64,000 nucleotides of DNA from Acrocarpospora macrocephala (GTDB lineage Bacteria; Actinomycetota; Actinomycetes; Streptosporangiales; Streptosporangiaceae): the NCBI RefSeq assembly GCF_009687865.1, contig NZ_BLAE01000056.1, positions 1 to 64,000 of the forward strand. Direction: 5' to 3'. Below, piece after piece: positions 9,613-64,000 of the stretch (position 1 is the stretch's first letter; each line of letters starts with the position of its first letter). Below the pieces are notes generated by a model, which was given only the letters and a program-made list of their open reading frames with translations, did not search any database and had not been told where the DNA came from. The position numbers and the translations under genes are program-made.

Positions 9613-9658
9613 ATCAGCGACGCGAGCAGCATTCGCGGCCCGGGCGCGTCTCTGAGAT

Positions 9659-12515: not shown

Positions 12516-12528
12516 TGTCACTGACGGG

Positions 12529-12543
12529 CACGCCACAGGCGTG
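12529..12543 (+). terminator. Possible weak terminator hairpin after the DHFR-like gene
   Basis: CACGCC-ACA-GGCGTG is a perfect 6-bp stem with a 3-nt loop, 14 bp past the stop codon. It has the same design as the hairpin at 10842-10856 and no T-run. Confidence 0.3.
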
Positions 12544-12584
12544 AAAGCGGCGCGAGTGCCGCCGACGCCGGAGCTCCCGGCTGG

Positions 12585-13739: not shown

Positions 13740-13893
13740 GGGGGATCTCCTGGGGGTTTGGTCACGGATGAGTAACCGGACATTAATCCCATCGATGCTC
13801 AAACCACAGGAAAACCTGACAAACTTTACCTTTGGTTTGGAATGGATCGGAGGGAGCAGTGGGGAGGGACAGCCTCGGCCCGAGGAGGAGCCC

Positions 13894-50974: not shown

Positions 50975-52774
50975 TCACATCAGCGCCGACGCGACCTGCG
51001 GGCGTGCTTCGGGCGCGGCTGATCGGCGGGCGTCCGCCGCCTCGTCGTCGGGCTGGGTCTGGGAATCCCGCTCAGCCTCGACCCGGGCTGTATACACGGC
51101 GATCTCCCGGTTCCGGGTGGCGGCGTCCCAGCCGAGTTCGGCGGCCATCAGGTCAGCGACCTCCTCGGCGCAGGCCACCCCCCGGTGGGGATATTCGATG
51201 CTGATCCGGGTGCGCCTGGTGAGCACGTCCTCCAGGTGTAACGCGCCCTCATGGCTGGCCGCGTACACGACCTCGGCGCGCAGGTAGTCGGGCGTGGATG
51301 TGATCGGCGCGAGCAGGTCCGGCCGGTCCACCGCCGCCGCCAGCACGTCGTGCAGCTGCGAGCCGTACCGATCGAGCAGGTGGCAGATCCGGTACGGGTG
51401 GATGTCGTACCGGTGGCCAAGCTCTTCGACCTGGTTGACCAGCGCATGGTAGCCGTCGGCGCCGAGCAGGGGAACCCGGTCGGTGATCGACCGCCGGATG
51501 AGCCGGGGGATGTCAGGGGCGGCGGCGCGCACGGCGGAGGCGGCCATCACGCGGTATGTCGTAAGCTTGCCGCCGGCGATCGCCACCAGGCCGGGCGAGA
51601 CCCGGGCCACCGCGTGCGTGCGGGAGAGTTTGTGTGAGGAGAGGTTGTGTGAGGAGAGGTTGGAGGTCTGCTCATTCTCCCCGGCTAGCAGCGGCCGCAG
51701 CCCGGCGTAGACACCCTCGATGTCCTCATGGGTCAGCGGGGTGACCAGCACCCGGTTGACGTGGTCGAGCACGTAGTCGATGTCGGCCTTGGTGGCGGCC
51801 GGATGGGCCAGGTCGAGGTTCCACTCCGTGTCGGTGGTGCCGATGATCCAGTGGTTCCGCCACGGTATGACGAACAGTACCGACTTCTCGGTGCGAAGAA
51901 TCAGACCGGATTCGGAGACGATCCGGTCCCGGGGCACGACCAGGTGCACTCCCTTGGAGGCTCGCACCCGGAACCGGCCGCGACTGCCGGACAACCGCTG
52001 GATCTCGCCGGTCCACACCCCGGTGCAGTTGATCACGGCGTGCGCTTTGACCTCGGTCCGCTCGCCCGTCTCGCAGTCCAGCACGCGAACCCCACAGACC
52101 CGGTCGGCCTCCCGCAGGAAACCGATGACCTGGGTCGAGGTGCGGACCACGGCACCGTACTGCGCGGCGGTCCTGGCGATCGTGAGCGTGTGCCGGGCGT
52201 CGTCAACCTGGGCGTCGAAGTACCGCATGCCACCGATCAGCGCGTTCCGGCGCAGCGCAGGCATCAGCCGCAGCGCCCCGGCTTTGGTGAACTGCCGGTG
52301 CCGAGGCACGGAGCGTGCGCCCCCCATCGTGTCGTACAGGATCAGGCCGGCGGTGACGTACGGCCGCTCCCAGAACCGCTTGGTGAGGGGGTAGAGGAAG
52401 GCGACCGGCTTCACCAGGTGCGGGGCGAGCCGGCTGAGCATCAGGTCGCGTTCCCGCAGCGCCTCGCGGACCAAGCCGAATTCGAGCTGCTCCAGGTAGC
52501 GCAACCCGCCGTGGAACAGCTTCGACGAACGCGACGAGGTTCCCGACGCCAGGTCGCGAGCCTCGACCAAGGCGACCCGCAGTCCGCGGGTGACCGCGTC
52601 CAGGGCGGTGCCCACACCCACCACCCCTCCGCCGATCACTACCACGTCGAACTGTTCAGATCCGAGTCTCCGCCACGCGGTCTCCCGCTCGGACGGCCCC
52701 AACCGGCCCGGTGGCTCCAACGCCGGACGGCGGGCGGGTCGGTGTCCGTTGTCACGATCGGTCGCCATGCGCAT
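50975..52774 (-). CDS. glpD: Aerobic glycerol-3-phosphate dehydrogenase
   Basis: FAD-dependent enzyme of 599 aa oxidising sn-glycerol-3-phosphate to dihydroxyacetone phosphate at the membrane with quinone reduction. The FAD motif is VVVIGGGVVGVGTALDAVTR near residue 44, followed by SSRSSKLFHGGLRYLEQLEF and later GLVAIAGGKLTTYRVMAASA, all diagnostic of GlpD. The C-terminal DAO domain follows. A small 15-bp tandem repeat (NLSSHNLSSHKLS) sits near residue 375, just before ARVSPGLVAI. A palindromic operator of the regional GntR family lies 17 bp upstream, linking it to the genes at 53.7-64 kb. Confidence 0.92.
   Translation of the reverse strand: MRMATDRDNGHRPARRPALEPPGRLGPSERETAWRRLGSEQFDVVVIGGGVVGVGTALDAVTRGLRVALVEARDLASGTSSRSSKLFHGGLRYLEQLEFGLVREALRERDLMLSRLAPHLVKPVAFLYPLTKRFWERPYVTAGLILYDTMGGARSVPRHRQFTKAGALRLMPALRRNALIGGMRYFDAQVDDARHTLTIARTAAQYGAVVRTSTQVIGFLREADRVCGVRVLDCETGERTEVKAHAVINCTGVWTGEIQRLSGSRGRFRVRASKGVHLVVPRDRIVSESGLILRTEKSVLFVIPWRNHWIIGTTDTEWNLDLAHPAATKADIDYVLDHVNRVLVTPLTHEDIEGVYAGLRPLLAGENEQTSNLSSHNLSSHKLSRTHAVARVSPGLVAIAGGKLTTYRVMAASAVRAAAPDIPRLIRRSITDRVPLLGADGYHALVNQVEELGHRYDIHPYRICHLLDRYGSQLHDVLAAAVDRPDLLAPITSTPDYLRAEVVYAASHEGALHLEDVLTRRTRISIEYPHRGVACAEEVADLMAAELGWDAATRNREIAVYTARVEAERDSQTQPDDEAADARRSAAPEARPQVASALM
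51618..51657 (-). repeat. 15-bp tandem repeat within glpD
   Basis: On the minus strand AACCTCTCCTCACAC is followed by AACCTCTCCTCACAA and by a diverged third copy, ACTCTCCCGCACG, encoding NLSSH-NLSSH-KLSRT. The unit is five codons. Other GlpD proteins have a short variable loop here, so this is a small version of the in-frame insertions seen in the NRPS and copA genes. Confidence 0.85.
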
Positions 52775-52790
52775 AAGCCCATCTGTTAAA

Positions 52791-52806
52791 CATAAGACGT
52801 CTTATG
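52791..52806. promoter_or_regulatory. GntR-regulon operator upstream of glpD
   Basis: CATAAGACGTCTTATG is a perfect 16-bp palindrome 17 bp before the glpD start. Extended rightward (ATGACTTAT) it matches sites at 55776, 58983, 59044 (other strand) and 59990, giving the consensus TAAGACGTCTKATGACT. The neighbouring HutC-type regulator (52868-53614) is the likely binder. Confidence 0.8.
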
Positions 52807-52867
52807 ACTTATTCTAGCGAGCGCATGCCGATTCGGACACCGGATACTCAGCGTCGGTGTCTGGCGT

Positions 52868-53614
52868 TCAGCTGACGCTCGGACCGGGGCCGCGCCGGTA
52901 CACGCGCAGCTCGACCACCGACGGGACGTGCCATTCCATCGACCGCATCACCGGCCGGCCCTGCGCGTCCACGTCCACCTGCTCAAGGTGCTGCAGGGGA
53001 GTGCCCACCGCGACGTCGAGCACCCGGGCCAGCTTGCGATCGGCCACTACGGGAACCAGGATCGCCTCTCCGTGATCGACCGCATGGGCACGTTCGGCCA
53101 GCAACCGGTACAGCGAACCGCGGAAAGCGTTTCGGTCCGCCTTGGGATCCACGATGTCGGCCGGGATGTAGTCCTCAGAGTAGATAGCCGGACGGCTGGC
53201 GGCCGTACGGACTCGGCGGATCTCCACCACGCCGGACTCGACTTCGACCCGCAGCGCCCTCGCCGTCTCGTCGTCGGCGGGAACCACGCGGGCGCTGAGG
53301 ATGTGCTTGCTGGCTCGGACGCCGCTGCTCTCCAAATACTCTGTGTAGCTGAAGTTCGTGTCCAGGAAGTTGCGGAGCGCCGGCCGGTGGGTGACGTAGG
53401 TACCGGAGCCGTGCTGGCGGACCACCATGCCGTCCTCGATCAATCCGCGCACGGCCTCGCGCAGAGTGACCCTGCTGACCGAGAAACGCTCGCGGAGTTG
53501 TTCCTCGTTCGGCAGCTTCGAGCCGAGCGGGAACTCCCCCGACATGATCGCGTTTCGCAGCTCGGCCCGCACCACGTCGGCGAGCAACGGTCTAGTCCGC
53601 AAGCCTGGCGCCAT
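52868..53614 (-). CDS. GntR/HutC family regulator
   Basis: Regulator of 248 aa. The N-terminal winged helix is RAELRNAIMSGEFPLGSKLP followed by EEQLRERFSVSRVTLREAVR and GLIEDGMVVRQHGSGTYV. The C-terminal UTRA effector domain (about 90-245) includes AIYSEDYIPADIVDPKADRN and LEQVDVDAQGRPVMRSMEWH, typical of HutC proteins that bind sugar phosphates or similar ligands. It sits between glpD and the catabolic genes, and a family of palindromic sites precedes those transcription units. It is therefore the predicted master regulator. The effector is unknown, possibly a pathway phosphate ester. Confidence 0.92.
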   Translation of the reverse strand: MAPGLRTRPLLADVVRAELRNAIMSGEFPLGSKLPNEEQLRERFSVSRVTLREAVRGLIEDGMVVRQHGSGTYVTHRPALRNFLDTNFSYTEYLESSGVRASKHILSARVVPADDETARALRVEVESGVVEIRRVRTAASRPAIYSEDYIPADIVDPKADRNAFRGSLYRLLAERAHAVDHGEAILVPVVADRKLARVLDVAVGTPLQHLEQVDVDAQGRPVMRSMEWHVPSVVELRVYRRGPGPSVS

Positions 53615-53697
53615 ACCATGATCCCCCGGTAGTCAGGTCAAGTTTGCTTTACGACTATTCATATCATGTCACACGTCAGACACACTGCACTCGCATG

Positions 53698-54738
53698 TCA
53701 GCCCAGCCAGCCATCGAGCCGCTCGGCGATGAAGTCGTCATCGGTCAACTCTGGATAGGCGAGGCAGACCCGGTCGATCTCCTCAAGCTGCCCGGGGGAA
53801 AGATCCTCGCCGGGGTCGAGACACCAGCGGCCGGCCAGCAATCCCTGGCGGCGCAGGATCTCGTGGATGCCGGGGATGCAGCCGTGGAAGCCCCCGGCCA
53901 CGTCGAAGATCACGGCGTTGGCGTCGGTGAGCGAGCCATCCAGGACGAGCAGGCGTCGCAACGCGAAGTCGTCACCGGCGCGAGCGGCGGCGGCTTCGGC
54001 GTGCAGCCGTACGGCGGGCTCGGTCCAGACCGCCCACTGGCCGAGCAGCCCGCCGACGAACTCGACCTCCATGGTCCGCCCGTCCAGAGTGACCCGGTTT
54101 CGGATCGCGAGGTCGGGCAAAATGTGGTTGTCATTGCCCGTGTAGAGGGCGATCTCCGGCAACCGTCCCGATCGGCAGACGCCGTGCAAGACATCCAGCG
54201 TGCGGTACCGGTCGAACGGCGCGACCTTGATTCCGGCCACCGACGGGATAGCGGCGAACTCCGTCCAGTAGCCCGCCGAGAGCACGCGTCCGCCGACGGC
54301 CGGCTGCAAGTAGAAGCCGATCACCGGGAGCACTTCGCCGACGGCGCGGGCGCGATCGAGTAACTCGGCCTCGCTCACCTCCGTCGCGGGGGCGAGCAGG
54401 GCCAGGTGGTAGCCCAGCGCGGCGGCGAGCTCCGCCTCCCGGACCGCCTGCTCCGTCGGCCCCTGGACCCCGGCGATCAGCACGACCGGCCGACCGGCCT
54501 CCGCCGCGACCGTTTCCGCGGCGAGTTCCAGCACGGGAGAGAGAAGGCCGTTGTCATGGATCGCGAACTGGGTGGTGTGCACCCCGACGGCGAGCCCACC
54601 GGCACCGGTGGCCAGGTAGTAGCGGGTGAGCGCCCGCTGGCGGCGTTCGTCCAGGCGGCGCCGGGCGGTTAGCGCCAGCGGGTGAGCGGGGATCGCGCAG
54701 CCGCGGGCGAACAAGGCGAGGGCTTCGGTCGCGGTCAT
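53698..54738 (-). CDS. Dihydrodipicolinate synthase/N-acetylneuraminate lyase family protein
   Basis: TIM-barrel class I aldolase-like protein of about 346 aa (NAL/DapA family). Key segments are GCAIPAHPLALTARRRLDER, then YYLATGAGGLAVGVHTTQFA, and the Schiff-base Lys in VAGIKVAPFDRYRTLDVLHG. The expected reaction is a retro-aldol cleavage or dehydration of a keto-acid, but the substrate is unknown. ATG 54738 is 1 bp after the epimerase stop. A GTG at 54756 would instead overlap it by 17 bp. The gene is co-transcribed with the epimerase under the site at 55776-55791. Confidence 0.85.
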   Translation of the reverse strand: MTATEALALFARGCAIPAHPLALTARRRLDERRQRALTRYYLATGAGGLAVGVHTTQFAIHDNGLLSPVLELAAETVAAEAGRPVVLIAGVQGPTEQAVREAELAAALGYHLALLAPATEVSEAELLDRARAVGEVLPVIGFYLQPAVGGRVLSAGYWTEFAAIPSVAGIKVAPFDRYRTLDVLHGVCRSGRLPEIALYTGNDNHILPDLAIRNRVTLDGRTMEVEFVGGLLGQWAVWTEPAVRLHAEAAAARAGDDFALRRLLVLDGSLTDANAVIFDVAGGFHGCIPGIHEILRRQGLLAGRWCLDPGEDLSPGQLEEIDRVCLAYPELTDDDFIAERLDGWLG

Positions 54739-54739
54739 G

Positions 54740-55756
54740 TCAGAACCGGCCGTCACGGCGCTGGAACCCGGTCGGCTTGTTCAGCGACGGAAGGCCTGAC
54801 CCGACCCACGCGGCGGTGTAGTCGAGAAGCTCGTCAAGGGTGACGTCGGGATAGCCGAAGAGCCGATGGCACCGTCCCGCGTTGGACAGCAGGGCGGTGT
54901 CCGCCTCCTGCCCGGTGAAACGGACCGGCACGTCGAGGCGAGCCGCCAGGGCGGCCGCCACCTGCCGGATCGAGACCAGCTCGGGACCGGTCACGTTGAG
55001 GACGGCGGGAGGGACATCCGCCAGCAGGAGAGCCCGGAGCACGACCTCGTTGGCGTACCCCTGCCACACCATGTTGGCGTGGCCCATGGTCAAGTCGATC
55101 GGCTCTCCCGCCAGGATCGCGCCGGCCAGGTCGACGAGCAGGCCGTAGCGCATCTCCACCGCGTAGTTCAGCCGGATCAGCGCGGTGGGGGTGCCGCTCA
55201 CGACGGCTGAGTGTTCCAGAATCCGCTCCCGGCCCAGGCAGCTCATCGCGTACTCGCCGACCGGTCCCAGCGGGGTGTCCTCGGTCGGTCCCGCAGCGGC
55301 GACCGGTGTGAGCGGATAAACGTTGCCGGTGGACAGGGCGACGATCCGGCTGCCGCGGAAGCGCTGGACGACCCGTCCCGGCAGGAAGGCATTGGTATAC
55401 CAGGTGGCCGCCTCCCGGCCGCTGGTGCCGAACTTGGCACCGACCAGGAACACCACGTTCGGGGCGTCTGGCAGATCTCCAAGCGCCGTGTCATCAGCGA
55501 TGTCCGCAGCGATCGTGGTGGCGCCGATCGCCCGCAACTCGTCGGCGAGACCGCTCTCGCCGAACCGGGAGACCGCGATCACCCGGCGACCGCCGCCAGC
55601 GGCCTCGGCGGCGCGCACCGCAAGCCGTACCAGGCTGGGCCCGAGCTTGCCGCCGGCGCCCAGCACCAGCAAATCGCCGTCGATCTTCCGCAGGTCGTCG
55701 ACAAGGGCGGTGCGGGGCGTGCTGAGCCGGTCCTCCAGCTCGGCCACGGACTCCAT
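54740..55756 (-). CDS. NAD-dependent epimerase/dehydratase-like protein
   Basis: Extended short-chain dehydrogenase-like protein of 338 aa. The nucleotide motif is LLVLGAGGKLGPSLVRLAVR near residue 30. The catalytic region reads GPVGEYAMSCLGRERILEHS: the Tyr of YxxxK is present but the Lys position is Cys, and the Ser/Thr of the triad may be in IVALSTGNVYPL. The missing Lys suggests altered or lost redox chemistry, or a different register. It heads a two-gene operon with the DapA-like lyase and has a regulon operator 20 bp upstream. AGGAG precedes ATG 55756. Confidence 0.82.
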   Translation of the reverse strand: MESVAELEDRLSTPRTALVDDLRKIDGDLLVLGAGGKLGPSLVRLAVRAAEAAGGGRRVIAVSRFGESGLADELRAIGATTIAADIADDTALGDLPDAPNVVFLVGAKFGTSGREAATWYTNAFLPGRVVQRFRGSRIVALSTGNVYPLTPVAAAGPTEDTPLGPVGEYAMSCLGRERILEHSAVVSGTPTALIRLNYAVEMRYGLLVDLAGAILAGEPIDLTMGHANMVWQGYANEVVLRALLLADVPPAVLNVTGPELVSIRQVAAALAARLDVPVRFTGQEADTALLSNAGRCHRLFGYPDVTLDELLDYTAAWVGSGLPSLNKPTGFQRRDGRF

Positions 55757-55775
55757 GCTGATCTCCTATGTAGAT

Positions 55776-55791
55776 CTAAGACGACTGATGA
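55776..55791. promoter_or_regulatory. GntR-regulon operator upstream of the epimerase/lyase operon
   Basis: CTAAGACGACTGATGA matches the glpD-site consensus (TAAGACGTCTKATGA) with one change in the core. It lies 20 bp upstream of the epimerase start at 55756, overlapping the expected promoter. Confidence 0.7.
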
Positions 55792-55820
55792 TTCTTGGGT
55801 TATCGACCTCGGCCGACCGG

Positions 55821-56888
55821 TCACGCGTGGCCATCACGCTCAGCATGAATGACATCGGCGGACTGCCCGGTCTCGGCGGACTGGTAGATCGCCAGCACCG
55901 TGGCCAGGGCGGCGGCGGCGTCCCGCGGACCGATGGGGGGCGCCAAACCGGCCTGAACGGCCTGCAGGAAACCGCGTAGCACCTCGACGTAACCGCCGAG
56001 GACGGGCGAGTCCACCGTGTTCCACCGTCCCGCCGACAGGTCGCCCCATGGCTGGCGCAGGTACACCCGCGCCTGACCGCCCTGATACGGATCGGGCAGG
56101 TCGATCCGGCCCTGCGAACCGTCGATCTCGATGCGTTCCTCCGCCCGCGCGCCGGGGCTGTGCGCGGACGCGGCGAGGGTGGCCAGGGCGCCGCCGGAGA
56201 GCTTGAGCACGGCGCCGGCGTTGTCCTCCACCTCGACCTTAGCGGTCAGAGTGGCGATCTCCGCGCTGGCCCTGATCACCTCCAGGCCGGTCAGGTAGCG
56301 GAGGGCGTCGAGCTGGTGCAGGACGTTCATCAACACGACCCCGCCCCCGGCCTTCGCCCGCCGGGACCGCCAGCCGTCCGCCACCCGGCCCGACGGGCCG
56401 GACTCCCAGTAGGAGTCCGGCTTGTCGATCACCGTACGAATCCGCACCGCCCGGACCTGCCCGATCGCCCCCGCCGCGATCAGGTCGCGGGCGGCGCGCA
56501 CCGGACCGGTCATGCGCATCGGAAACACGACCCCCAACCGGCGATCCCGCTCGGCCGCGGCCCGCTCAAGGGCGCGCAGCTCCGCGAGGTCGAGCGCCAT
56601 GGGCTTCTCCACGAGGACGTGACGGTTCGCCTGCAGCGCCTGGCGAGTGATGGGCGCGAGCAGGTGGTGCGGCACGGCCACGTAGACGATGTCGACCGCG
56701 GGGTCCGCCAGCAGCGAGGCGAGCGATCCATGCACGGCGGCCCCGCGCGGCAGGGCCAGGCTGGCGGCCAGGTGCTCGACCAGGTCGAAGGCGCCGGCGA
56801 GACGGCCGCCGGGCAGCTCGTCGATGGCGTGGCACAGGTCGACCGCGGCGCCACCGCAGCCGGCCACGCCCACCCCGAGCCGGGTCAT
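55821..56888 (-). CDS. Gfo/Idh/MocA family NAD(P)-dependent oxidoreductase
   Basis: Sugar or polyol dehydrogenase-like protein of 355 aa. The N-terminal Rossmann segment is LGVGVAGCGGAAVDLCHAID. The conserved EKP motif is HVLVEKPMALDLAELRALER, and the substrate-domain helix GGVVLMNVLHQLDALRYLTG carries the likely catalytic His. It begins at ATG 56888, overlapping the upstream BNR gene by ATGA. Reactions in this family include oxidation of inositols, amino sugars or glycosides; no specific substrate can be given. Confidence 0.88.
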   Translation of the reverse strand: MTRLGVGVAGCGGAAVDLCHAIDELPGGRLAGAFDLVEHLAASLALPRGAAVHGSLASLLADPAVDIVYVAVPHHLLAPITRQALQANRHVLVEKPMALDLAELRALERAAAERDRRLGVVFPMRMTGPVRAARDLIAAGAIGQVRAVRIRTVIDKPDSYWESGPSGRVADGWRSRRAKAGGGVVLMNVLHQLDALRYLTGLEVIRASAEIATLTAKVEVEDNAGAVLKLSGGALATLAASAHSPGARAEERIEIDGSQGRIDLPDPYQGGQARVYLRQPWGDLSAGRWNTVDSPVLGGYVEVLRGFLQAVQAGLAPPIGPRDAAAALATVLAIYQSAETGQSADVIHAERDGHA

Positions 56889-58126
56889 CCGGCTGGCTCG
56901 GCATCGGCTGGGTACCCGCCACCGGCGACCAGATGCGACCGCGTGTCGAAGTACTTGTCGCCATAGTGCTCGACGGCCAGAGCCACCACGTCGAGCCCGC
57001 CGGCCGGATCGATGATCGCCCACGGGCGGGCGATCCGGACCGGGCCGGGCGGCAAGAGCTCGCGCGCGTCCCAGACGCCGGACGCGTTCCGGTCGCGGCG
57101 CTCGAAAAACCAGATGCCGGCGCTCTCGCGGGTCAGGTAGATCCGCCCGCCCGGACTGCGGTGCGGAAACGCGACGCCGCCCGCGTAGAAGCCGGCGTGG
57201 GTGTAGCCGAAAATGGTCCCGGCCGGAGCCACGTCCTCGGTGTGCCAGCCGCCGTCACGATAGATGCTGACGTGGTAGCGCGCGTCCACGGTCGCGTCGT
57301 CGCCCTTGACCTTCGACACAAAGCCGATCTCGAAGTCCGGCCCGTCCGACACGTCGAACAGGTTGACCGTACGGTCCGACGGCGTAGCGTGCACCAGTTC
57401 AAGCTGGTCCTGGTTGAGGGGCAGGGTGGCCTCGACGTACAGATTGGCGATGACGGCGCCGTCGCCGGGCAGGCTCACCTCGCCGGTCTCGAGGTCGACC
57501 TGGCAGGCCCAGACATCGTGCAGCGGCCGCGGCGTCTCCTGCGGATGTCCGGACACGGCCATCCGCACCGTGCGGCCGTCCTCGAGCATCGTCGTGGCCA
57601 GATAGATCATCTGATCAGTGTCGAAGACGAGGAACGGAACGGGCTCCCCCCAGGAGGCCGCCCAGTCGTCCGACCGGCGGTAGCTCCACCCGATCTCGTC
57701 GACCCTGGTGAACAGGTGCAGTTCGTCGCCGCGCACGTGCACTTGCGCGTAGCTGGTCTCACCGCCGAACTTCAGGTCTCGCTGAGGATGCCAGCCGTTG
57801 ATCTCGGTGGCGTTCTCGGCGGGGACGCTTTCGGAGACGACGTTTTCGGATATACGGAACTGCAGTGTGTCGCCGCAGTCGTGCCGCGAGTAGAACGCGA
57901 CCAACGGCTTGCCCGGCACGGCGACCAACGCGGGGTTGTTGTGATCGTCCGGCTCGTACGCGGCCAGGATAGTCCTGGCCGAACGGTGCGTCACCAGATT
58001 CCAGGTCGCGGCGTAGATCTGTCCGGCGGAATCCATCGCCCCGAAGAACACGCGGTCCCTGATTCGCACCGCGCGCGGCCGGGTCCACCAGCACCACGAG
58101 ACATCTTCGAGCAAAATGCCCTTCAT
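56885..58126 (-). CDS. BNR-repeat (BNR_4-like) six-bladed beta-propeller protein
   Basis: Protein of 413 aa, soluble with no signal peptide. It has repeated blade-like strands: AMDSAGQIYAATWNLVTHRS, then HNNPALVAVPGKPLVAFYSR, then QVHVRGDELHLFTRVDEIGW, then SGHPQETPRPLHDVWACQVD, and a final blade with GKI/GGRIYLTRESAGIWFFE. The fold is that of BNR_4 proteins, which include uncharacterised sialidase-like and polysaccharide-lyase-like enzymes. Its position between the phosphatase (7-bp gap) and oxidoreductase genes (ATGA overlap) places it in a single operon. Cytosolic location argues for acting on imported oligosaccharide. Confidence 0.75.
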   Translation of the reverse strand: MKGILLEDVSWCWWTRPRAVRIRDRVFFGAMDSAGQIYAATWNLVTHRSARTILAAYEPDDHNNPALVAVPGKPLVAFYSRHDCGDTLQFRISENVVSESVPAENATEINGWHPQRDLKFGGETSYAQVHVRGDELHLFTRVDEIGWSYRRSDDWAASWGEPVPFLVFDTDQMIYLATTMLEDGRTVRMAVSGHPQETPRPLHDVWACQVDLETGEVSLPGDGAVIANLYVEATLPLNQDQLELVHATPSDRTVNLFDVSDGPDFEIGFVSKVKGDDATVDARYHVSIYRDGGWHTEDVAPAGTIFGYTHAGFYAGGVAFPHRSPGGRIYLTRESAGIWFFERRDRNASGVWDARELLPPGPVRIARPWAIIDPAGGLDVVALAVEHYGDKYFDTRSHLVAGGGYPADAEPAG

Positions 58127-58133
58127 GAGGCCC

Positions 58134-58979
58134 TCACTTCTTCAGGGGTTGTCGGGTGACCTCGCCGGTCATCAAGTGAGCGATACTGTCGAGAACATAG
58201 GTCGGCGGCGGGTCGGCCCGGCGGGCGGCGGCCCGGTCCGTCGCACCCGAGAGCACGAGAGCCGCGTCGATTCCCGCGCCGACGGCCATCGCGACGTCGG
58301 TCTCCAACCGGTCCCCCACGATCAGTACCTCGCCTGCCGGTAGCCCGAACCGGGCCAGGATGGTGGCGGCCATCTGCGGAGACGGCTTGCCGACCACCGC
58401 CTCCGCTGTTACTCCCGTGCACGCCTCGATCGCGGCGAGCATGGCCGCGCAGTCCGGGAGCCCGCCCTCCGGCGTGGGACAGTAGCGGTCCGGATTGGTC
58501 GCCACGATCGCGGCCCCGGCGGTGACCGCGCGGAACGCCGCGTGCAGCTTGGCGTAGTCGAAGCCGCGGTCGAACGACACCACGACCAGGTCGGCGCGCT
58601 CCGCGTCGGCGGCGGCAAGCACCATGAAGCCGTGGCGGCGAAGCGTGTCCGCCAGCAGTGGCTCGGAAACGCACAGCACGGAGGCGCCGGGGTGCCTGTC
58701 GCACAGGTAGCCGACCATGGCGTCGAGCGAGGAGACCACCTCGTCCGGCGCCGTGGGTATCCCGAGCCGGGTCAGCTTCGCCGCGTACGTCGCGGACGGA
58801 TCGAGCGGCTTGTTGGTCAGGTAGAGGACTGAGCGATTCGCCTCACGCACCGCCTCGATCACCGCGCGGGCGCCCGGCAGCAGCCGTTCGCCCAGGTAAA
58901 CGGTGCCGTCGAGGTCGAACACGATTCCACGATATCGATCCAGGATATTTGCCAACCCGTTCCAATCCAGACATTTCAT
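58134..58979 (-). CDS. HAD-IIA phosphatase (NagD/AraL/PGP-like)
   Basis: Haloacid-dehalogenase phosphatase of 281 aa with a C2 cap. Motif I is GIVFDLDGTVYLGERLLPGA, motif II YLTNKPLDP, motif III Lys in EAVVGKPSPQMAATILARFG and motif IV VLIVGDRLETDVAMAVGAGI. This subfamily dephosphorylates small metabolites such as p-nitrophenyl-phosphate-like sugars, phosphoglycolate or glycerol phosphate. In Bacillus the AraL phosphatase is encoded with AraM, a glycerol-1-phosphate dehydrogenase; here too a G1P dehydrogenase is in the same regulon. It is the first gene of the operon, with an operator just upstream at 58983. Confidence 0.88.
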   Translation of the reverse strand: MKCLDWNGLANILDRYRGIVFDLDGTVYLGERLLPGARAVIEAVREANRSVLYLTNKPLDPSATYAAKLTRLGIPTAPDEVVSSLDAMVGYLCDRHPGASVLCVSEPLLADTLRRHGFMVLAAADAERADLVVVSFDRGFDYAKLHAAFRAVTAGAAIVATNPDRYCPTPEGGLPDCAAMLAAIEACTGVTAEAVVGKPSPQMAATILARFGLPAGEVLIVGDRLETDVAMAVGAGIDAALVLSGATDRAAARRADPPPTYVLDSIAHLMTGEVTRQPLKK

Positions 58980-58982
58980 ATC

Positions 58983-58999
58983 GTAAGACGTCTGATGAC
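58983..58999. promoter_or_regulatory. GntR-regulon operator upstream of the HAD-IIA operon
   Basis: GTAAGACGTCTGATGAC lies 4 bp upstream of the HAD start at 58979 and matches the glpD site at 14 of 17 positions, including the palindromic core AAGACGTCT. So close a position would block initiation or overlap a short leader. Confidence 0.75.
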
Positions 59000-59043
59000 T
59001 TTACCGATCCCACGCCGGGACTGTCCACTCCTTGACGCAATGT

Positions 59044-59066
59044 CATAAGTCATCATACGTTTTATG
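59044..59066. promoter_or_regulatory. GntR-regulon operator upstream of the isomerase gene
   Basis: Read on the minus strand, CATAAAACGTATGATGACTT followed by ATG matches the glpD site extended on its right flank (CATAAGACGTCTTATGACTT). It overlaps the ATG at 59064, which argues that the true isomerase start is downstream at 59112. Confidence 0.7.
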
Positions 59067-59111
59067 TCTCAAGCTCCGGTAGTGGTTCCCGGAGCCCGCC
59101 GAGGAGTGCGA

Positions 59112-59930
59112 GTGACGCCTGATCACGACAGCCAGATCCATGAAGCGCAGCCGGCCGACCAGGGCAGGCGTCCTCGCCTCCTGCGGCACGGCCTGTGCTC
59201 GGTGACCTTCCGGCCGCTACCGGTCGTGAAGGTGATCGAACTTGCCGTGTCGGCCGGGCTGAGCGTCGTTGAGTGGGGGGCTGACATCCACGTCCCCCCC
59301 GGCGACCTCGCCGTCGCGAGGGAGGTCAGGAGCCGGACGGCCGAGGCGGGACTGGCGGTCGGATCGTACGGGACATACGTCTATCTGGGGCCGGACTGCG
59401 AGTTCGGGCCGGTCATCGCCGGGGCCTTGGCCCTGGGCGCGCCCCGGATCCGGGTGTGGGCCGGGCGCACGGGCTCCGCCGCGGTCACCGCAGCCGAGCG
59501 CGCCGCCGTCGTGGCCTCGGCCAGGGAGCTCGCCGCCCGCGCCGAGGACGCGGGACTCACGGTCGGACTCGAGTTCCACGACGGCAGCCTCACCGACACC
59601 GCCGAATCCACGCTCGCGCTGCTCGCCGACATCGACCGGCCTGTGATCAATACCTACTGGCAGCCGCCTCCGGGTCTGGACGACGGCGCGACCCTGGCCG
59701 GACTCGACCTGATCCTCCCGCACGTCATCGCCGTGCACGCGTGCTCGCTCTCGCCCACCGGGCGATGGCTGCCGCTGGACGCCAGGCGCAGGCTCTGGGA
59801 GGCCGTCGTGGCCAGGCTGGTGGCCCGCGGCGTACCGACCGACGTGCTGCTGGAGTTCGTGCTGAACGACGATCCGCTCCAGTTCGCCGAGGACGCGCAG
59901 GCCCTGGACGCGATCATCAGGGGCGCGTGA
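59112..59930 (+). CDS. Sugar phosphate isomerase/epimerase (xylose-isomerase-like TIM barrel)
   Basis: Protein of about 272 aa in the AP2EC superfamily. Typical segments are GLCSVTFRPLPVVKVIELAV, then GLSVVEWGADIHVPPGDLAV, then the metal-ligand Glu in LTVGLEFHDGSLTDTAES and His in HVIAVHACSLSP, and near the end VLLEFVLNDDPLQFAED. The substrate is unknown. GTG 59112 is chosen because GAGGAG lies 5-6 nt upstream; the ATG at 59064 lies inside an operator-like site. It diverges from the HAD operon and faces the kinase gene 106 bp downstream. Confidence 0.8.
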   Translation: MTPDHDSQIHEAQPADQGRRPRLLRHGLCSVTFRPLPVVKVIELAVSAGLSVVEWGADIHVPPGDLAVAREVRSRTAEAGLAVGSYGTYVYLGPDCEFGPVIAGALALGAPRIRVWAGRTGSAAVTAAERAAVVASARELAARAEDAGLTVGLEFHDGSLTDTAESTLALLADIDRPVINTYWQPPPGLDDGATLAGLDLILPHVIAVHACSLSPTGRWLPLDARRRLWEAVVARLVARGVPTDVLLEFVLNDDPLQFAEDAQALDAIIRGA

Positions 59931-59948
59931 AAACCAGCTCACGCTGAA

Positions 59949-60009
59949 CATCAGACGAATGATCGTCATCCCAAGCGTTGCTCCAAGAGTCGTAATACGT
60001 CTACTGTCT
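59949..60009. promoter_or_regulatory. Two GntR-regulon half/whole sites upstream of the FGGY kinase
   Basis: TCGTAATACGTCTACTGTCT (59990-60009) matches the operator consensus at most positions. Another partial copy, CATCAGACGAATGA (59949-59962), lies 40 bp upstream in the opposite orientation. The kinase start is at 60037 with GGGAGGA upstream. Confidence 0.6.
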
Positions 60010-60036
60010 ACATCTACTTCGCGACGGGAGGACTGA

Positions 60037-61521
60037 ATGTCCTACGTGATGGGCGTCGATGTCGGCTCGCAGAGCGTCAAGGGCGTGCTGCTGGATCCAG
60101 ACGGCAGGCAGGTCGCCGCGGGTGGCCACGGCTACCCGATGAGCCACCCCGCCGCCGGCTGGGCCGAACAGGATCCACTGGACTGGTACGGCGGCCTGGC
60201 CGAGGTATCCCGGCGCCTGGTGAAGACCGCCGGAATCCGCCCCGGCGAGGTCGGCCATCTGTGCCTGGCCTCCCAGGTGGACGGGGTGGTGGTCACCGAG
60301 GCGGACCTGACCCCCCGCCGTCCCGCGATCATCTGGCTGGACTGCAGGGCGACAGCCGAGGCCGCCGAGTTGGCCGAGCGCGTCGGCGCCGACCGGATCT
60401 TCGCGATCACAGGGCTGAACGCCGACGCCTTGCACGTGGCGCCGAAGATCGCCTGGCTGCGCCGGCACGAACCCGAGGTGCTGCGCCTCGCGTCGGCGCT
60501 GCTGCCGGTGGGTGGCTGGCTGCTCGCCAAGCTGACCGGCGTCCTCGCGCAGGACCCCGCCAACGCCTCCAGCACGATGCTGTTCGACGTGACCTCCGGG
60601 AACTGGTCCGACGAGTTGCTCGCCGCCATGTCCCTCGACCCGGCGCTGCTCGGCGCCGTACGGCCCTCGACCGAGGTGGCCGGGACGCTCACCGCGACGG
60701 CGGCCGGCGACCTCGGGCTGAGCACCGGGTGCCGAGTCCTGGTCGGCACGGGCGACGAGCACGCCGCGTCTGTGGGCGCCGGAGCCGTCCGCCCCGGAAT
60801 CGTGGCCGATGTCGCGGGCACGGCGGAGCCCGTCACGGTTACGGCCCGCACGCCGGTGTTCGACCCCACCCGGCTGGTCGAGACCCATGCCCACGCGCTG
60901 CCGGGGCTGCTGCTGGTGGAGAACCCGGGGTTCGTCTCCGGCGGCTGCACGCTGTGGCTCGCCGGCACGATCCTCGGCCTCGACCAGGGCACGCTGATCG
61001 GACGAGCGTCGACCGTACCGGCCGGCAGTGACGGCGCGCTGTTCCTCCCCACGTTGAGCGGAGCCACCACACCGGTATGGGACGACCGGATGCGCGGGGT
61101 GTTCGCCGGGTTGTCGATGAACCACGGGCCCGCGCACCTGGCCCGCGCGGTGATCGAGGGCTGCGTCTACGCGCTGCGCGACATCGTCGACCGGCTCGGC
61201 GAGCTCGGCCTGCTCACCGCCGACAGCGAGATCCGGGTGGTCGGCGGGGGCGCCCGATCGGCGCTATGGCTCCAGATCAAGGCCGACGTGCTCAACCGCC
61301 CTGTGCGCGCGGTGCGCAGGCTGGACGGCGCCGCGTCCGGCGCGGCACTGCTCGCCGGCCTCACCGCCGGCACCTTCGACTCGGTCGAGGACGCCGTGGA
61401 ACGCGGCGTGGATCTCGACCCCCAACCGTATCTGCCCGACCCGCACAGGGCCGAGATCTACACCCACGGCCACGCCGCATACCGCCGACTGTTCTACGCC
61501 ACCCGTGAGGCTATGTCATGA
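60037..61521 (+). CDS. FGGY-family carbohydrate kinase
   Basis: ATP-dependent sugar or polyol kinase of 494 aa, closest by eye to xylulokinases. The N-terminal phosphate-binding segment is YVMGVDVGSQSVKGVLLDPD. The C-terminal domain contains GVFAGLSMNHGPAHLARAVI, EGCVYALRDIVDRL and the adenosine motif IRVVGGGARSALWLQIKADV. The sugar cannot be predicted. Its stop overlaps the start of the glycerol-1-phosphate dehydrogenase gene (ATGA), so the two are co-translated and probably act in sequence. Confidence 0.9.
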   Translation: MSYVMGVDVGSQSVKGVLLDPDGRQVAAGGHGYPMSHPAAGWAEQDPLDWYGGLAEVSRRLVKTAGIRPGEVGHLCLASQVDGVVVTEADLTPRRPAIIWLDCRATAEAAELAERVGADRIFAITGLNADALHVAPKIAWLRRHEPEVLRLASALLPVGGWLLAKLTGVLAQDPANASSTMLFDVTSGNWSDELLAAMSLDPALLGAVRPSTEVAGTLTATAAGDLGLSTGCRVLVGTGDEHAASVGAGAVRPGIVADVAGTAEPVTVTARTPVFDPTRLVETHAHALPGLLLVENPGFVSGGCTLWLAGTILGLDQGTLIGRASTVPAGSDGALFLPTLSGATTPVWDDRMRGVFAGLSMNHGPAHLARAVIEGCVYALRDIVDRLGELGLLTADSEIRVVGGGARSALWLQIKADVLNRPVRAVRRLDGAASGAALLAGLTAGTFDSVEDAVERGVDLDPQPYLPDPHRAEIYTHGHAAYRRLFYATREAMS

Positions 61522-62909
61522 CCGCACTCGCCGAACCCTCCAACGCGCTGTCCCAGGTCCGCGCGATCTTCGGTTCAGCCGCCGACATCGGGTTACGCCG
61601 TCTCGTCGCCGGCCCTGGGACGTTGCGCCGTCTCGGTGAGCTGGTGCGGGAGACCCGCAGCGGCAGCGGGCCGATCGTGCTTCTGACCGACGCCACCCCC
61701 AAGGTGGCGTACGGAGCCGACCTCACCGAATCGGTGCTCGACCGGCTCCGCCAGGTGGGCCGGCCGGTGCACGTCACCGTCGGGTCTCCTGGCCACCACA
61801 CGACGGCTGACCCGGCCACGGTGGCTGACGCGATAGCCAGGACCGCGGGAGCCGGAGTCCTGGTCACCCTGGGTTCTGGAACGATTTGCGACGTCGGCAA
61901 GGTGGCCAGCGCCCGCGGCGCGTTCCCGCACGTGGTGGTGCAAACCGCGGCCAGCGTCAACGGCTACGCCAACGCCCAGTCGGTGCTGCTGCTCGACGGG
62001 GTCAAGACCACCGTTTCGAGTAGCTGGCCGGAGGTGCTGCTGATCGATGAGGAGACGCTGGTGTGCGCCCCGCCTGAGCTCACCAGGGCCGGGCTCGGCG
62101 ACCTGATCTCCGTCTACACCGCGTCCGCCGACTGGGCATTGTCCGACGCCCTGCGCGTCGACTGCGGCTATCGGCCGGAACTGGTGCGACTGCTGCGGCA
62201 GGCCGCGACGGCGGTGCTCCCGCTGGCCGGTGAACTGCCCACCGGTACCGCCGCGGTGACCGCGCTGGCGCATGGTCTCACCCTCGGCGGGCTGGTGATG
62301 GGCATGGCCGGGCAGACCGCCCCCTCATCCGGTACGGAGCACGCGATCAGCCATCTGCTGGACATGGCGGCGGGCGGCGAAGGACGGCCGCACGCGCTGC
62401 ACGGCGCCCAGGTCGGGATCAGCGCCCTGGTAGCCGCCGCGACCTGGGAACACCTGGGAGCGAGGTTTGCCGCCGCGCGCGTCGAGGTGCCGCAGGACGC
62501 GGCCGCCCGCGACCAGGTGCTTGCCGCGTTCGCAGAGGTCGACCCGAGCGGCGCGATGGGCGAGCGGTGCTGGCAGGGCTATGCCGCGAAACTCCAGGCA
62601 CTTCGGGCCAATCCCGAGGCTCTCGCCTCGCTGGCCGCTCGATGGGACGCCTGGGCGGATGGCGTGGCGCCACGGCTGGAGGTGCTGGCCGACGCGCTGC
62701 GCCGGGCCGGCGCGCCGACCAGGTTCACCGACCTCAACCCGGCGGTGAGTCCCGAACGAGCCCGCTGGGCCATAACCAACGCGCCGTTGCTCCGCAGCCG
62801 CCTGGGAATCGCCGACCTGGCCGGGCTGGCCGGGCTCTGGACGGATGCCGACATCGACGCCATCTTGACCCGGCTCACCTCTGTGGGAGCAGGACTGTCT
62901 GCCTCTTGA
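61518..62909 (+). CDS. sn-glycerol-1-phosphate dehydrogenase-like (AraM/EgsA family)
   Basis: Iron/zinc-type NAD(P)-dependent dehydrogenase of 463 aa of the glycerol-1-phosphate dehydrogenase family, longer than typical AraM (about 400 aa). The NAD motif is VLVTLGSGTICDVGKVASAR, then AASVNGYANAQSVLLLDGVK. The metal ligands appear as Asp in GLGDLISVYTASADWALSD, His in GTEHAISHLLDM and His in HALHGAQVGISALVA, the exact D-H-H pattern of the family. Family members interconvert sn-glycerol-1-phosphate and dihydroxyacetone phosphate. An altered sugar-phosphate specificity is possible, given the kinase upstream. Confidence 0.88.
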   Translation: MTALAEPSNALSQVRAIFGSAADIGLRRLVAGPGTLRRLGELVRETRSGSGPIVLLTDATPKVAYGADLTESVLDRLRQVGRPVHVTVGSPGHHTTADPATVADAIARTAGAGVLVTLGSGTICDVGKVASARGAFPHVVVQTAASVNGYANAQSVLLLDGVKTTVSSSWPEVLLIDEETLVCAPPELTRAGLGDLISVYTASADWALSDALRVDCGYRPELVRLLRQAATAVLPLAGELPTGTAAVTALAHGLTLGGLVMGMAGQTAPSSGTEHAISHLLDMAAGGEGRPHALHGAQVGISALVAAATWEHLGARFAAARVEVPQDAAARDQVLAAFAEVDPSGAMGERCWQGYAAKLQALRANPEALASLAARWDAWADGVAPRLEVLADALRRAGAPTRFTDLNPAVSPERARWAITNAPLLRSRLGIADLAGLAGLWTDADIDAILTRLTSVGAGLSAS

Positions 62910-62992
62910 CCGTGATCCACCTGTCAACGGTGGACGACCTCCTGGGCGTGAACGCCCGGGATTCCTGGCTAGATCTCGCTGAAGGAGCACCC

Positions 62993-63673
62993 GTGATCAA
63001 CTTTGTTTTCATGCTGACCCACAACGACCGCACCGTACCCGACGCCGCCGATGTGCTGAACAGCCTGGCCGGCAGCGGGCTCCGCCACGTCGGTTTCAAA
63101 GACGTCGGGGTCAGCCCGGCGGTAATCAGAGCGCTCACCGACCAGGCCCACGAGCTGGGCATGACCGTCATGCTCGAAGTGGTATCCACCAGCCGCGAGG
63201 ATGAGCTGGCGTCGCTGCACGCCGCGGTCGCCGGTGGGGTGGACTGGGTTCTCGGCGGCACCCACGGTGACGCGGGCGCGGCCCTGTTCCGCGGCACCGG
63301 GCTGCGGTACTGCCCGTTTCCGGGGACGGTGGTCGGCCATCCCAGCGTGCTGCGCGGAACGATCGAGGAGATCGCCGCGGACGCGGCCCGGCTCACCGCG
63401 CTGGACGGTGTTCACGGCGTCGACCTGCTCACCTACCGGCACGCCGACGCCGACCCGCATGGCCTGACCGCGGCCGTGACCGCCGCGAGCGGCGGCCCGG
63501 TGATCGTCGCGGGGTCGATCACCGGGGCCGCGCAAATCGCGCTCATGTCCCGGGCCGGCGCCTGGGGCTTCACCATCGGCGGAGCCATCTTCGAAGGGAA
63601 GCTGCCCGGTGGGCCGAGCATCGCGGATCAGGTCCGCACGGTCCTCGACTTCTCCGCCATGGTGGATGCGTAG
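62993..63673 (+). CDS. Phosphate-binding TIM-barrel protein of unknown function
   Basis: Protein of 226 aa starting at GTG 62993 (AAGGAG 6 nt upstream), MINFVFMLTHNDRTVPDAAD. The C-terminal half has the standard phosphate-binding arrangement GGPVIVAGSITGAAQIALMS followed by GAWGFTIGGAIFEGK, as in HisA/TrpC/KDPG-aldolase-like barrels. The N-terminal strand LRHVGFKDVGVSPAVIRALT may supply a Lys. I do not recognise a specific family function. It follows the G1P dehydrogenase by 83 bp, with a small hairpin (62940-62959) in between, and is convergent with the phosphodiesterase gene. Confidence 0.75.
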   Translation: MINFVFMLTHNDRTVPDAADVLNSLAGSGLRHVGFKDVGVSPAVIRALTDQAHELGMTVMLEVVSTSREDELASLHAAVAGGVDWVLGGTHGDAGAALFRGTGLRYCPFPGTVVGHPSVLRGTIEEIAADAARLTALDGVHGVDLLTYRHADADPHGLTAAVTAASGGPVIVAGSITGAAQIALMSRAGAWGFTIGGAIFEGKLPGGPSIADQVRTVLDFSAMVDA

Positions 63674-63682
63674 CCCGCCGGA

Positions 63683-64000
63683 TCAGGCGAGAGATCGGTC
63701 GACCACCTTGACGATCGCCGCCACGTCGTCGCCCATCAGACCGACGACGCCCATGGCGTGCACGCGTTCGATGGATTCCGCCGACGTCGCCGGCCACGCC
63801 CAGATCGCGACACCGGCCTCCTGTGTGGCCCGCACCACGTCCGGAGTGAGATCGGCGTGGTGGTGCTGGATGATCTCGGCACCAATCCGGCGGGCCTGTG
63901 TGATGAGGGTCTCGGCCTGGCTCGGTCCGCGCTCAGGAAGCCGGTCCGGGGCCAGCTTCAGGCCGGGGGTCACCCGGCCCGCCTCGGCCAGCGCCTCGTG
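63683..64000 (-). CDS. Glycerophosphodiester phosphodiesterase family protein (partial, runs off the window)
   Basis: The frame is open to the last base of the window, so this is the C-terminal part (106 residues visible). It ends in the GDPD signature series GAEIIQHHHADLTPDVVRAT, then AGVAIWAWPATSAESIERVH and AMGVVGLMGDDVAAIV, matching the last strands of the TIM barrel where WT(V/P)..n....l...GVDGiiTD occurs. This enzyme class cleaves glycerophosphodiesters to glycerol phosphate and an alcohol, which would feed GlpD or the G1P dehydrogenase in this regulon. The N-terminal catalytic His residues lie outside the window. Confidence 0.8.
   Translation of the reverse strand, partial: HEALAEAGRVTPGLKLAPDRLPERGPSQAETLITQARRIGAEIIQHHHADLTPDVVRATQEAGVAIWAWPATSAESIERVHAMGVVGLMGDDVAAIVKVVDRSLA

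Follow-up and report, generated by a model that had tools for sequence, protein, structure and literature searches.

A local operator-linked gene set of Acrocarpospora macrocephala, possibly serving the breakdown of a glycerophosphodiester-linked sugar

The DNA analyzed here, called the window below, consists of bases 1-64000 of the 78,861-base contig NZ_BLAE01000056.1 from the 12.1-Mb genome of Acrocarpospora macrocephala, a soil actinobacterium that belongs, like Microtetraspora glauca, to the family Streptosporangiaceae; the analysis concerned mainly the region from about 50 kb rightward, and contig coordinates continue the window numbering. This region holds about fifteen genes that form a local regulon, among them those of a sugar transporter right after the window end. 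A 19-base operator precedes seven of the eight inferred transcription units, and both the gene order and the operators are conserved in Microtetraspora glauca and Streptosporangiaceae bacterium NEAU-GS5. We tentatively propose that the regulon would take up a glycerophosphodiester-linked sugar and split it inside the cell, with both hands of glycerol phosphate being converted to dihydroxyacetone phosphate. The genes named in a first-pass annotation of this DNA were all recovered at the positions that it had given, and together with the additions made here they read as follows (the eight transcription units were deduced from gene spacing and strand).

50975-52774, minus strand: glpD, glycerol-3-phosphate dehydrogenase (the regulon copy), with DAO and DAO_C domains
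52868-53614, minus strand: GntR/HutC-type regulator, with GntR helix-turn-helix (HTH) and UTRA domains
53615-53697, minus strand: promoter region of the regulator, with the element ACGTGTGACATGATA instead of the 19-base operator, conserved in three of three species
53698-54756, minus strand: DapA-like class I lyase/aldolase (DHDPS, 26 bits, cut-off 22.1)
54740-55756, minus strand: NAD-dependent epimerase/dehydratase-fold protein (domain match)
55821-56888, minus strand: Gfo/Idh/MocA oxidoreductase (domain match), whose ATG at 56888 overlaps the stop of the propeller-like gene
56885-58126, minus strand: all-beta protein, weakly BNR_4-like (Pfam, below cut-off), with no evident signal peptide
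58134-58979, minus strand: HAD-IIA phosphatase (TIGR01460, 119.4 bits, cut-off 100.15)
59064-59930, plus strand: TIM1, a xylose-isomerase-like TIM barrel (AP_endonuc_2)
60037-61521, plus strand: FGGY carbohydrate kinase of the [SC]QVDGVV-motif subfamily (domain match and motif)
61518-62909, plus strand: dehydrogenase like sn-glycerol-1-phosphate dehydrogenase (G1PDH; Fe-ADH_2)
62993-63673, plus strand: TIM2, a HisA/NanE-like phosphate-binding-type barrel outside the Pfam families (profile searches, alignment, structure model)
63683-64000, continuing to about 64441 of the contig, minus strand: glycerophosphodiesterase (GDPD, 134.2 bits) with no evident signal peptide, cut by the window end
64722-68037 of the contig, divergent from GDPD: CUT1 binding protein and two permeases (domain matches)

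The Gfo start was placed at the ATG at 56888 instead of 57023 because the M. glauca orthologue begins at the same residue, and GDPD probably starts at 64441 (contig coordinates).

The first-pass annotation had reported a sequence motif upstream of most transcription units, and this observation was borne out. The motif, AGTCATMAKACGTYTTATG, is 19 bases long and is present in six strong copies and one weaker copy.

52791-52809, minus strand: operator of glpD, of which 16 bases, CATAAGACGTCTTATG, form a perfect palindrome
58982-59000, minus strand: operator of the HAD-BNR-Gfo unit, conserved in M. glauca and NEAU-GS5
59048-59066, plus strand: operator of TIM1, overlapping the TIM1 ATG, kept in NEAU-GS5 and, without the gene, in M. 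glauca
59988-60006, plus strand: operator of the FGGY-G1PDH-TIM2 unit, conserved in M. glauca and NEAU-GS5
64515-64533 (contig, past the window end): operator of the GDPD promoter (weight-matrix scan)
64693-64711 (contig, past the window end): operator of the transporter (weight-matrix scan)
55775-55793, minus strand: weak operator-like site of the epimerase-dapA unit (score 17.8; outside the matrix training)

A weight matrix was built from the six strong sites, which score 27.4-33.6, against a best score of 15.5 on the contig outside the cluster and a top score of 12.4 in a 48-kb control (window 1-48000). When each operator was left out in turn, its rank over the whole 78.9-kb contig was between 2nd and 12th, the positions ranked higher being other sites, their overlaps and, in one case, the weak epimerase site; the sole operator to fall below an out-of-cluster position was that of GDPD, which scored 16.3 when left out, against 16.5 at 75542. 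With up to 3 mismatches, the pattern gave 7 matches in the window against 0.26 expected, some of them being one site counted on both strands, and none of 100 shuffles reached 7. Genome-wide, all three perfect matches lie in the cluster; with up to 3 mismatches 35 matches were obtained, of which the cluster accounts for 8, and a reversed control pattern gave 33. Since the genome-wide matches do not exceed those of the control pattern by more than this, the regulon is local: it is confined to the cluster, with no sign of a wider regulon.

The sequences of M. glauca and NEAU-GS5 were not part of the matrix training, and the operators at their HAD, TIM1, FGGY, GDPD and transporter promoters score 28.9, 24.0, 25.6, 21.8 and 21.6 in the former and 22.4, 17.0, 25.6, 16.5 and 29.4 in the latter. 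GDPD and the transporter point away from each other, and each has an operator on its side. The weak epimerase site was not seen in the M. glauca or NEAU-GS5 clusters, and the regulator gene has no good 19-base operator at its own promoter. No operator site scoring at least 10 was found at the glpD copies elsewhere (contig C53 of the same genome and loci L098, L099 and L100) or at the FGGY gene on another M. glauca contig (C41). The regulator itself, with orthologues 85% identical in M. glauca and 89% in NEAU-GS5 and with HTH and UTRA domain scores of 74.9 and 95.9 bits, both above cut-off, is the putative repressor of the regulon. The M. glauca locus holds more operator-like sites at 3408 (17.7), 18805 (23.0) and 18825 (18.2), beside unassigned frames, the last two being close to the contig end.

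Both other clusters have the same gene order, at 73-89% identity. The NEAU-GS5 cluster contains everything except glpD, and that of M. glauca is without glpD, FGGY and TIM1, its contig stopping 636 bases past the last permease, which bears on the absence of glpD. The closest GlpD in each of these two genomes is 63% identical and lies on a different contig from the cluster. In the HAD-G1PDH interval of M. glauca (9541-10001 of its locus), the three operators can be recognized together with short 3' pieces of TIM1 and FGGY, and the TIM1/FGGY deletion puts G1PDH directly behind the FGGY operator. GDPD, G1PDH, TIM2 and HAD are still open frames there, and the closest other FGGY of M. glauca is 35% identical and adjoins a GlpD that is 46% identical to the window GlpD. 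Because the kinase was lost and these four genes were kept, the phosphate ester in M. glauca needs a source other than the deleted kinase, GDPD being the obvious one. An additional 512-residue open reading frame (ORF) without Pfam match lies between TIM2 and GDPD in M. glauca (12408-13946 of its locus).

Relatives of the window G1PDH at E 1e-60 were found in 8 of 297 family genomes, a count that takes in its own genome, and the 4 other same-genus genomes listed had none; at E 1e-50 they occurred in 7 of 396 genomes of a phylum sample, again including its own. Five of the eight family genomes (loci L033-L037) carry a reduced core, FGGY-G1PDH-HAD-TIM2, in the same order, with TIM2 59-64% and G1PDH 42-45% identical, a GlpD in three of the five and a related GntR gene in three. 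These reduced clusters (10.7-20 kb each) contain no relative of dapA, epimerase, Gfo, propeller, TIM1, GDPD or transporter at E 1e-3. The window operator was not found in any of the five (best score 13.7), so they probably use another one. The set divides into separately occurring sub-modules, namely dapA-epimerase, FGGY-G1PDH-HAD-TIM2 and transporter-GDPD. The neighborhood comparison thus upholds the first-pass view of one joined gene set in that the genes co-occur in two other genera, but glpD is inside only one of the three full clusters, FGGY and TIM1 were lost in M. glauca, and the sub-modules also occur apart.

A transporter had been predicted beyond 64 kb, and when the sequence was extended past that point the CUT1 binding protein and two permeases appeared. 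The binding protein has a lipoprotein-type start (by eye), and its 15 PDB matches up to E 10 are led by the sugar-binding protein 7c1b (E 2.4e-6). Because the nearest of these PDB entries bind sugars and the label UgpB appears on none of them, a saccharide is a likelier ligand than a bare glycerophosphodiester. No ATPase frame is among those listed in contig 64722-68037. Downstream lies a second sugar ABC system (contig 68758-72969) with an ATPase-like frame (71890-72969, by eye) and no strong operator in the weight-matrix scan; its ATPase might also serve the regulon transporter.

According to the explanation that we prefer, short of confidence, the GntR/HutC-type repressor would govern a local regulon for the catabolism of a sugar or oligosaccharide bearing a glycerophosphodiester. 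Import of the compound would be the task of the CUT1 binding protein and permeases, and a cytosolic GDPD would cleave the phosphodiester, releasing glycerol phosphate together with a sugar or polyol. The sn-1 form would be oxidized to dihydroxyacetone phosphate by the G1PDH-like enzyme with NAD(P), and the sn-3 form to the same product by the regulon's own GlpD, with the HAD-IIA phosphatase dephosphorylating an intermediate or dead-end ester. Opening of the sugar half may fall to the Gfo/Idh/MocA oxidoreductase, the epimerase-fold protein and the DapA-like lyase, joined in clusters that have them by TIM1 as isomerase and FGGY as kinase, and TIM2 may act on a small sugar phosphate. Each reaction and its stereochemistry, like the repression and the substrate, is predicted here, the chemistry from family membership.

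What argues for glycerol phosphate is that GDPD is co-controlled in three of three full clusters, that GlpD is of housekeeping type, that the HAD-IIA protein has PDB relatives including the glycerol 3-phosphate phosphatase 4i9f (E 1.3e-26), and that M. glauca lost the kinase yet kept G1PDH, TIM2 and HAD. The closest PDB sequence of GDPD is 2pz0 (E 2.8e-38). The window GlpD is 63% identical to the other GlpD of the genome (contig C53), for which "housekeeping" is a label chosen here; it has the DAO and DAO_C domains and the housekeeping grouping, yet scores 349.3 against a cut-off of 360 with NF008899. In the GlpD tree, the window copy and that of L034 and, more loosely, those of L035 and L036 (a fragment) group with the GlpD that is probably the family's housekeeping enzyme (5 rows, support 99/98; 8 rows, 96/93).

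The compound sn-glycerol-1-phosphate (G1P) is the mirror image of the usual glycerol phosphate and also occurs in archaeal lipids. Lipoteichoic acid is built of G1P (PMC7086022, in the text available), and a marine bacterium grows on G1P (PMC12718374, likewise); G1P substrates therefore exist. The first-pass annotation had suggested a route to dihydroxyacetone phosphate through both G1P and sn-glycerol-3-phosphate. In its favor, G1PDH- and GlpD-type genes stand together in 14 of 22 loci (see below), and GlpD in this and three related clusters is of housekeeping type; against it, glpD is in one of three full clusters. As for the glycerophosphodiester proposed, beside a glycosyl-glycerol phosphate, as its starting compound, the presence of GDPD under the shared operator agrees with it, but a saccharide is likelier than the bare diester, and G1P as a substrate is only presumed. 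The same annotation could match the set to no described pathway; likewise, no description of a pathway uniting this gene set was found in the open-access full texts searched.

The link of G1PDH-type genes with kinase, phosphatase and GlpD recurs well outside this family. Twenty-five loci were scanned with profiles built here, the ORFs in the scans being picked by length or codon-position guanine-plus-cytosine content (GC) rather than by a gene caller, and labels given "by eye" being made without a family search. Twenty-two distinct G1PDH-like loci were counted, L047 and L104 being apparently one record and L087 and L121 being outgroups, which were left out. These loci are not a random sample: they come from the family and phylum searches, three of four plasmid records and then six of 62 further records, one of the six being a glycerol dehydrogenase chosen as outgroup. 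The G1PDH of NEAU-GS5, hidden by a longer overlapping frame in the profile scan, was counted from the cluster comparison. FGGY was present in 20 of the 22 loci (in L116 as only a 54-bit match to a cut araB), HAD-IIA or HAD-IIB in 15 (57 bits in L105, 76 in L046), a GlpD-type gene in 14 (in L120 as only a 123-bit fragment) and TIM2 in 8; absences are soft because several contigs are short. G1PDH-type genes accompanied by FGGY, HAD and GlpD also occur in Rhizobium, Shinella, Acidiphilium and Rubrobacter. In Rhizobium leguminosarum, Shinella sumterensis and Acidiphilium, a sugar-binding regulator lies beside G1PDH-HAD-IIB-GlpD, FGGY and a sugar ABC transporter, and Rubrobacter radiotolerans has HAD-IIA-G1PDH-RpiB-FGGY with GlpD and dihydroxyacetone (DHA)-kinase neighbors. 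The Rubrobacter (L048:13687-17502, by eye) and Shinella (L105:2443-8077, annotated) clusters also hold 2-oxo-acid- or acetoin-dehydrogenase-like E1/E2 genes.

In the G1PDH tree, whose deep branches are long and partly open, the window protein falls in an eight-member set (100/100) with its two orthologues and L033-L037, within a 16-row group (85/78). The AraM-type protein of Priestia belongs to another group (92/81), together with those of R. radiotolerans, contig C105 of the same genome as the window, Rhizobium, Shinella sumterensis and Acidiphilium. Since cassette-bearing loci stand on each side of the tree, the cassette spans both main G1PDH groups. A 100/99 split separates the window GlpD from the GlpD-like proteins found at the Rhizobium, Shinella, Acidiphilium and Rubrobacter loci, and the GlpD-type partners of G1PDH therefore have more than one origin. 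That GlpD-type enzymes of differing origin came to stand beside G1PDH points to a need for both dehydrogenases. We speculate, at a level of doubt that makes it unlikely as a whole, that the genes of the G1PDH-like NAD(P) enzyme, HAD, FGGY and GlpD in Actinomycetota and Pseudomonadota may be a dedicated bacterial cassette for G1P catabolism, in which glycerol phosphates of both hands would pass from glycoconjugates to dihydroxyacetone phosphate and to which TIM2 would contribute a new enzyme family. Descriptions of bacteria that feed on G1P have only begun to appear, and they concern transport; a self-contained regulon with importer, operator and both glycerol-phosphate dehydrogenases offers a direct way to test the use of such carbon. 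Rhizobia are among the bacteria in which the wider cassette and the unassigned TIM2 family are met again, so that one assignment would aid the annotation of many clusters.

Several observations weigh against a glycerophosphodiester substrate and a G1P-oxidizing step. GDPD is present in 3 of the 22 G1PDH-like loci and missing in the other 19, and the reduced clusters have the same core yet no GDPD; the three putative transporter genes tested in them are amino-acid-type permeases. To these are added the presence of glpD in one full version of three and the lack of a UgpB-labelled protein among the PDB matches of the binding protein. The G1PDH-like protein scores 126.3 bits with the curated G1PDH model NF002022, against a cut-off of 413, and thus falls outside that equivalog. 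G194 D195, E274 H275, H279 and H295 G296 are invariant in 15 aligned relatives, the Asp, His and His presumably being metal ligands. In the SxDG motif, whose Asp has a substrate role, the eight-member group of the window has Asn, and the Priestia AraM-type protein, the C105 protein and some relatives have Asp. The separation from the Priestia protein has moderate support (85/78 vs 92/81) on long branches. Moreover, a haloarchaeal protein annotated as G1PDH is a glycolaldehyde reductase that lacks notable G1P activity (PMC9700705); no haloarchaeal record was among the 60 of 66 matches listed in the G1PDH relative search. The window G1PDH lies in an uncharacterized clade, and this, with the example of the glycolaldehyde reductase, is the main doubt about the preferred explanation. 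A second G1PDH-like gene of the same genome (contig C105; L087:4286-5344) has an SHDG motif, presumably as in the archaeal enzymes, and adjoins CDP-alcohol phosphotransferase-like and nucleotidyltransferase-like frames (by eye), so its product possibly has a biosynthetic use of G1P.

A kinase-aldolase-reductase pathway for a rare sugar is an alternative that we consider possible but rather doubtful. TIM1 would isomerize an aldose to a ketose, FGGY would phosphorylate it, TIM2 as an aldolase or epimerase would give dihydroxyacetone phosphate and an aldehyde, the G1PDH-like protein would be an aldehyde or polyol(-phosphate) dehydrogenase, and GDPD would be accessory. TIM2 relatives are indeed found beside FGGY, class II aldolase, fucose-isomerase-like and EIIC-GAT genes in low-GC genomes of the phylum (Pfam for L075 and L077, the remainder by eye), and also in DUF1537 kinase-PdxA operons, whose published chemistry ends in dihydroxyacetone phosphate. 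The kinase has a VD motif of neither GlpK nor XylB type, FucK and RhaB carrying VD at that position, and GDPD is absent from the five reduced clusters. The glycolaldehyde reductase homologue, too, works in a pathway that also includes a HAD phosphatase and an aldolase (PMC9700705, text available). Such a pathway, however, leaves unexplained GDPD under the shared operator in all three full clusters and the housekeeping-type GlpD, and it sits poorly with M. glauca, which retains G1PDH, TIM2 and HAD despite the loss of FGGY and TIM1.

Improbable, in our judgment, is an erythritol-type catabolism of a tetritol or pentitol in which the GlpD- and G1PDH-like proteins would be polyol-phosphate dehydrogenases. 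The neighborhood of the R. radiotolerans gene (HAD-IIA, RpiB, FGGY, DHA-kinase, GlpD) suggests it, as do a related genome (L046) with HAD, FGGY and RpiB- and class-II-aldolase-like frames (by eye) and the Rhizobium, Shinella and Acidiphilium versions with their sugar-binding regulators, FGGY and GlpD-type genes. EryB is a GlpD relative, and EryD is a SorC-type regulator. The core of erythritol loci consists of EryA, EryB and EryD (PMC3599248, text available). Domain searches, however, gave no RpiB-like or SorC-type gene among the cluster genes of the window, the window GlpD groups with housekeeping GlpD and apart from the GlpD-like proteins of those clusters, and the CUT1 transporter, Gfo, DapA and GDPD would go unexplained.

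Still more improbable is that the genes serve not a foreign nutrient but the recycling of material from the cell itself, either its glycerol-phosphate wall polymer or the head groups of its phospholipids. GDPD, G1PDH, GlpD and HAD would fit the turnover of poly-glycerol-phosphate, and the chemistry would be near that of the preferred explanation, but the distribution is sporadic (8 of 297 family genomes at E 1e-60, 0 of 4 other same-genus genomes listed), and an importer and sugar-oxidizing genes share the operator. Finally, the very mixed enzyme families and the lack of a wider regulon might suggest unrelated neighbors with a chance motif, a view that is refuted by the gene order and operators conserved in two other genera and, for the motif, by the 0 of 100 shuffles and by perfect matches lying only in the cluster.

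Among known systems, the Ugp layout for glycerophosphodiester uptake, ugpBAEC-ugpQ, is similar in that a CUT1 binding protein and two permeases stand beside GDPD under shared control; here, by contrast, the unit holds no ATPase, the PDB matches of the binding protein include no UgpB, sugar-degrading genes are added, and the regulator is of the GntR/UTRA type. The B. subtilis-type ara operon contains AraL (HAD-IIA) and AraM (G1PDH), and a Priestia plasmid carries araB, araA and a G1PDH-type gene. The likeness lies in HAD-IIA and G1PDH-type genes near an FGGY kinase; the differences are that the window G1PDH is in another tree group, that no arabinose isomerase was seen here, and that the kinase is not AraB-like by score. 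DUF1537 kinase-PdxA acid-sugar operons have the TIM2 family in common and differ in kinase and dehydrogenase, and the erythritol operon has an EryD-type (SorC) regulator and an EryB-type dehydrogenase where a GntR/UTRA regulator and a GlpD of the housekeeping group are found here. The haloarchaeal non-carboxylating pentose bisphosphate pathway shares a HAD phosphatase, a step forming dihydroxyacetone phosphate and a G1PDH-annotated aldehyde reductase, but the accessible text describes a FucA-type aldolase and no FGGY kinase, GDPD or GntR regulon (PMC9700705). Bacterial G1P uptake through GpxB and UgpB likewise concerns G1P as a nutrient; the part of that report available deals with transporters and no G1P-oxidizing regulon, and the binding protein here is of another type (PMC12718374).

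As for the individual proteins, the FGGY kinase is not a glycerol kinase GlpK (209.3 vs 590.35 bits, with an SQVDGVV motif) or a xylulokinase XylB (323.3 vs 380.25 bits). GlpK has a QRET-type substrate motif, and the kinases beside G1PDH in Rubrobacter (L047, L048) and Shinella WSC3-e (L105) have HQRETFV, a glycerol-kinase-type reading, where the window clade has [SC]QVDGVV. A search of 72,556 plasmid records for FGGY relatives at E 1e-80 gave none.

TIM2 matches no Pfam family; in profile searches it is related to HisA, NanE and other such barrels over their C-terminal part, with HisA models matching 22 of 23 members, NanE models 21 and NF003198 nine (best E 0.00083). An identity as PcrB/GGGPS was rejected, no PcrB being among the Pfam matches up to E 1 and NF003198 matching weakly. 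D12, K36, E62 and R149 are among the residues invariant in 23 relatives, and the structure model (mean predicted local distance difference test score, pLDDT, 69.3) gave only general TIM-barrel matches. At E 1e-12, TIM2 occurs in 11 of the 396 phylum-sample genomes, its own included. Plasmid neighborhoods, covering 5 of 23 plasmid records, place relatives in DUF1537 kinase-PdxA operons of Gemmobacter, Roseateles, Rhizobium and Bradyrhizobium and beside PdxA alone in Gluconobacter. On these proteobacterial plasmids the TIM2 relative is the third gene of the DUF1537 kinase-PdxA operons (L063:6878-9657, L064:6820-9687, L065:6789-9711 and L067:6927-10029), and plasmid relatives are annotated as hypothetical, 4-hydroxythreonine-4-phosphate dehydrogenase or cupin protein.

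The DapA-like protein family keeps what we take to be the Schiff-base Lys in 12 of 12 aligned members and its presumed partner Tyr in 10 of 12, the window protein having the Tyr. YxxxK is the catalytic pair of SDR enzymes; in the epimerase-fold protein the Tyr is kept, but the Lys is replaced by Cys (10) or Val (2) in all 12 members, so that it is not a standard SDR epimerase by this pair. The epimerase-fold gene is together with or near a dapA-like gene in all nine plasmid loci fetched (of 19 plasmid records; L068, L069, L070 and L110-L115, from three phyla), several of which carry CUT1 transporters and Gfo genes. Because the two genes lie together or close by in nine of nine loci across three phyla, the pair looks like a separate sugar cassette. 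The Gfo protein is not an inositol 2-dehydrogenase IolG (97.2 vs 355 bits).

The "BNR propeller" of the first-pass annotation is present as a gene, but the label is weak (BNR_4 E 0.003, 17.4 bits vs a cut-off of 27.3), and the structure model, built for three sequences, was unusable (mean pLDDT 43.7). No relative at E 1e-4 was found among the 72,556 plasmid records, and among the loci compared the protein occurs only in the two other full clusters. Near the contig end, a 475-residue frame (contig 76920-78347) is transposase-like by eye.

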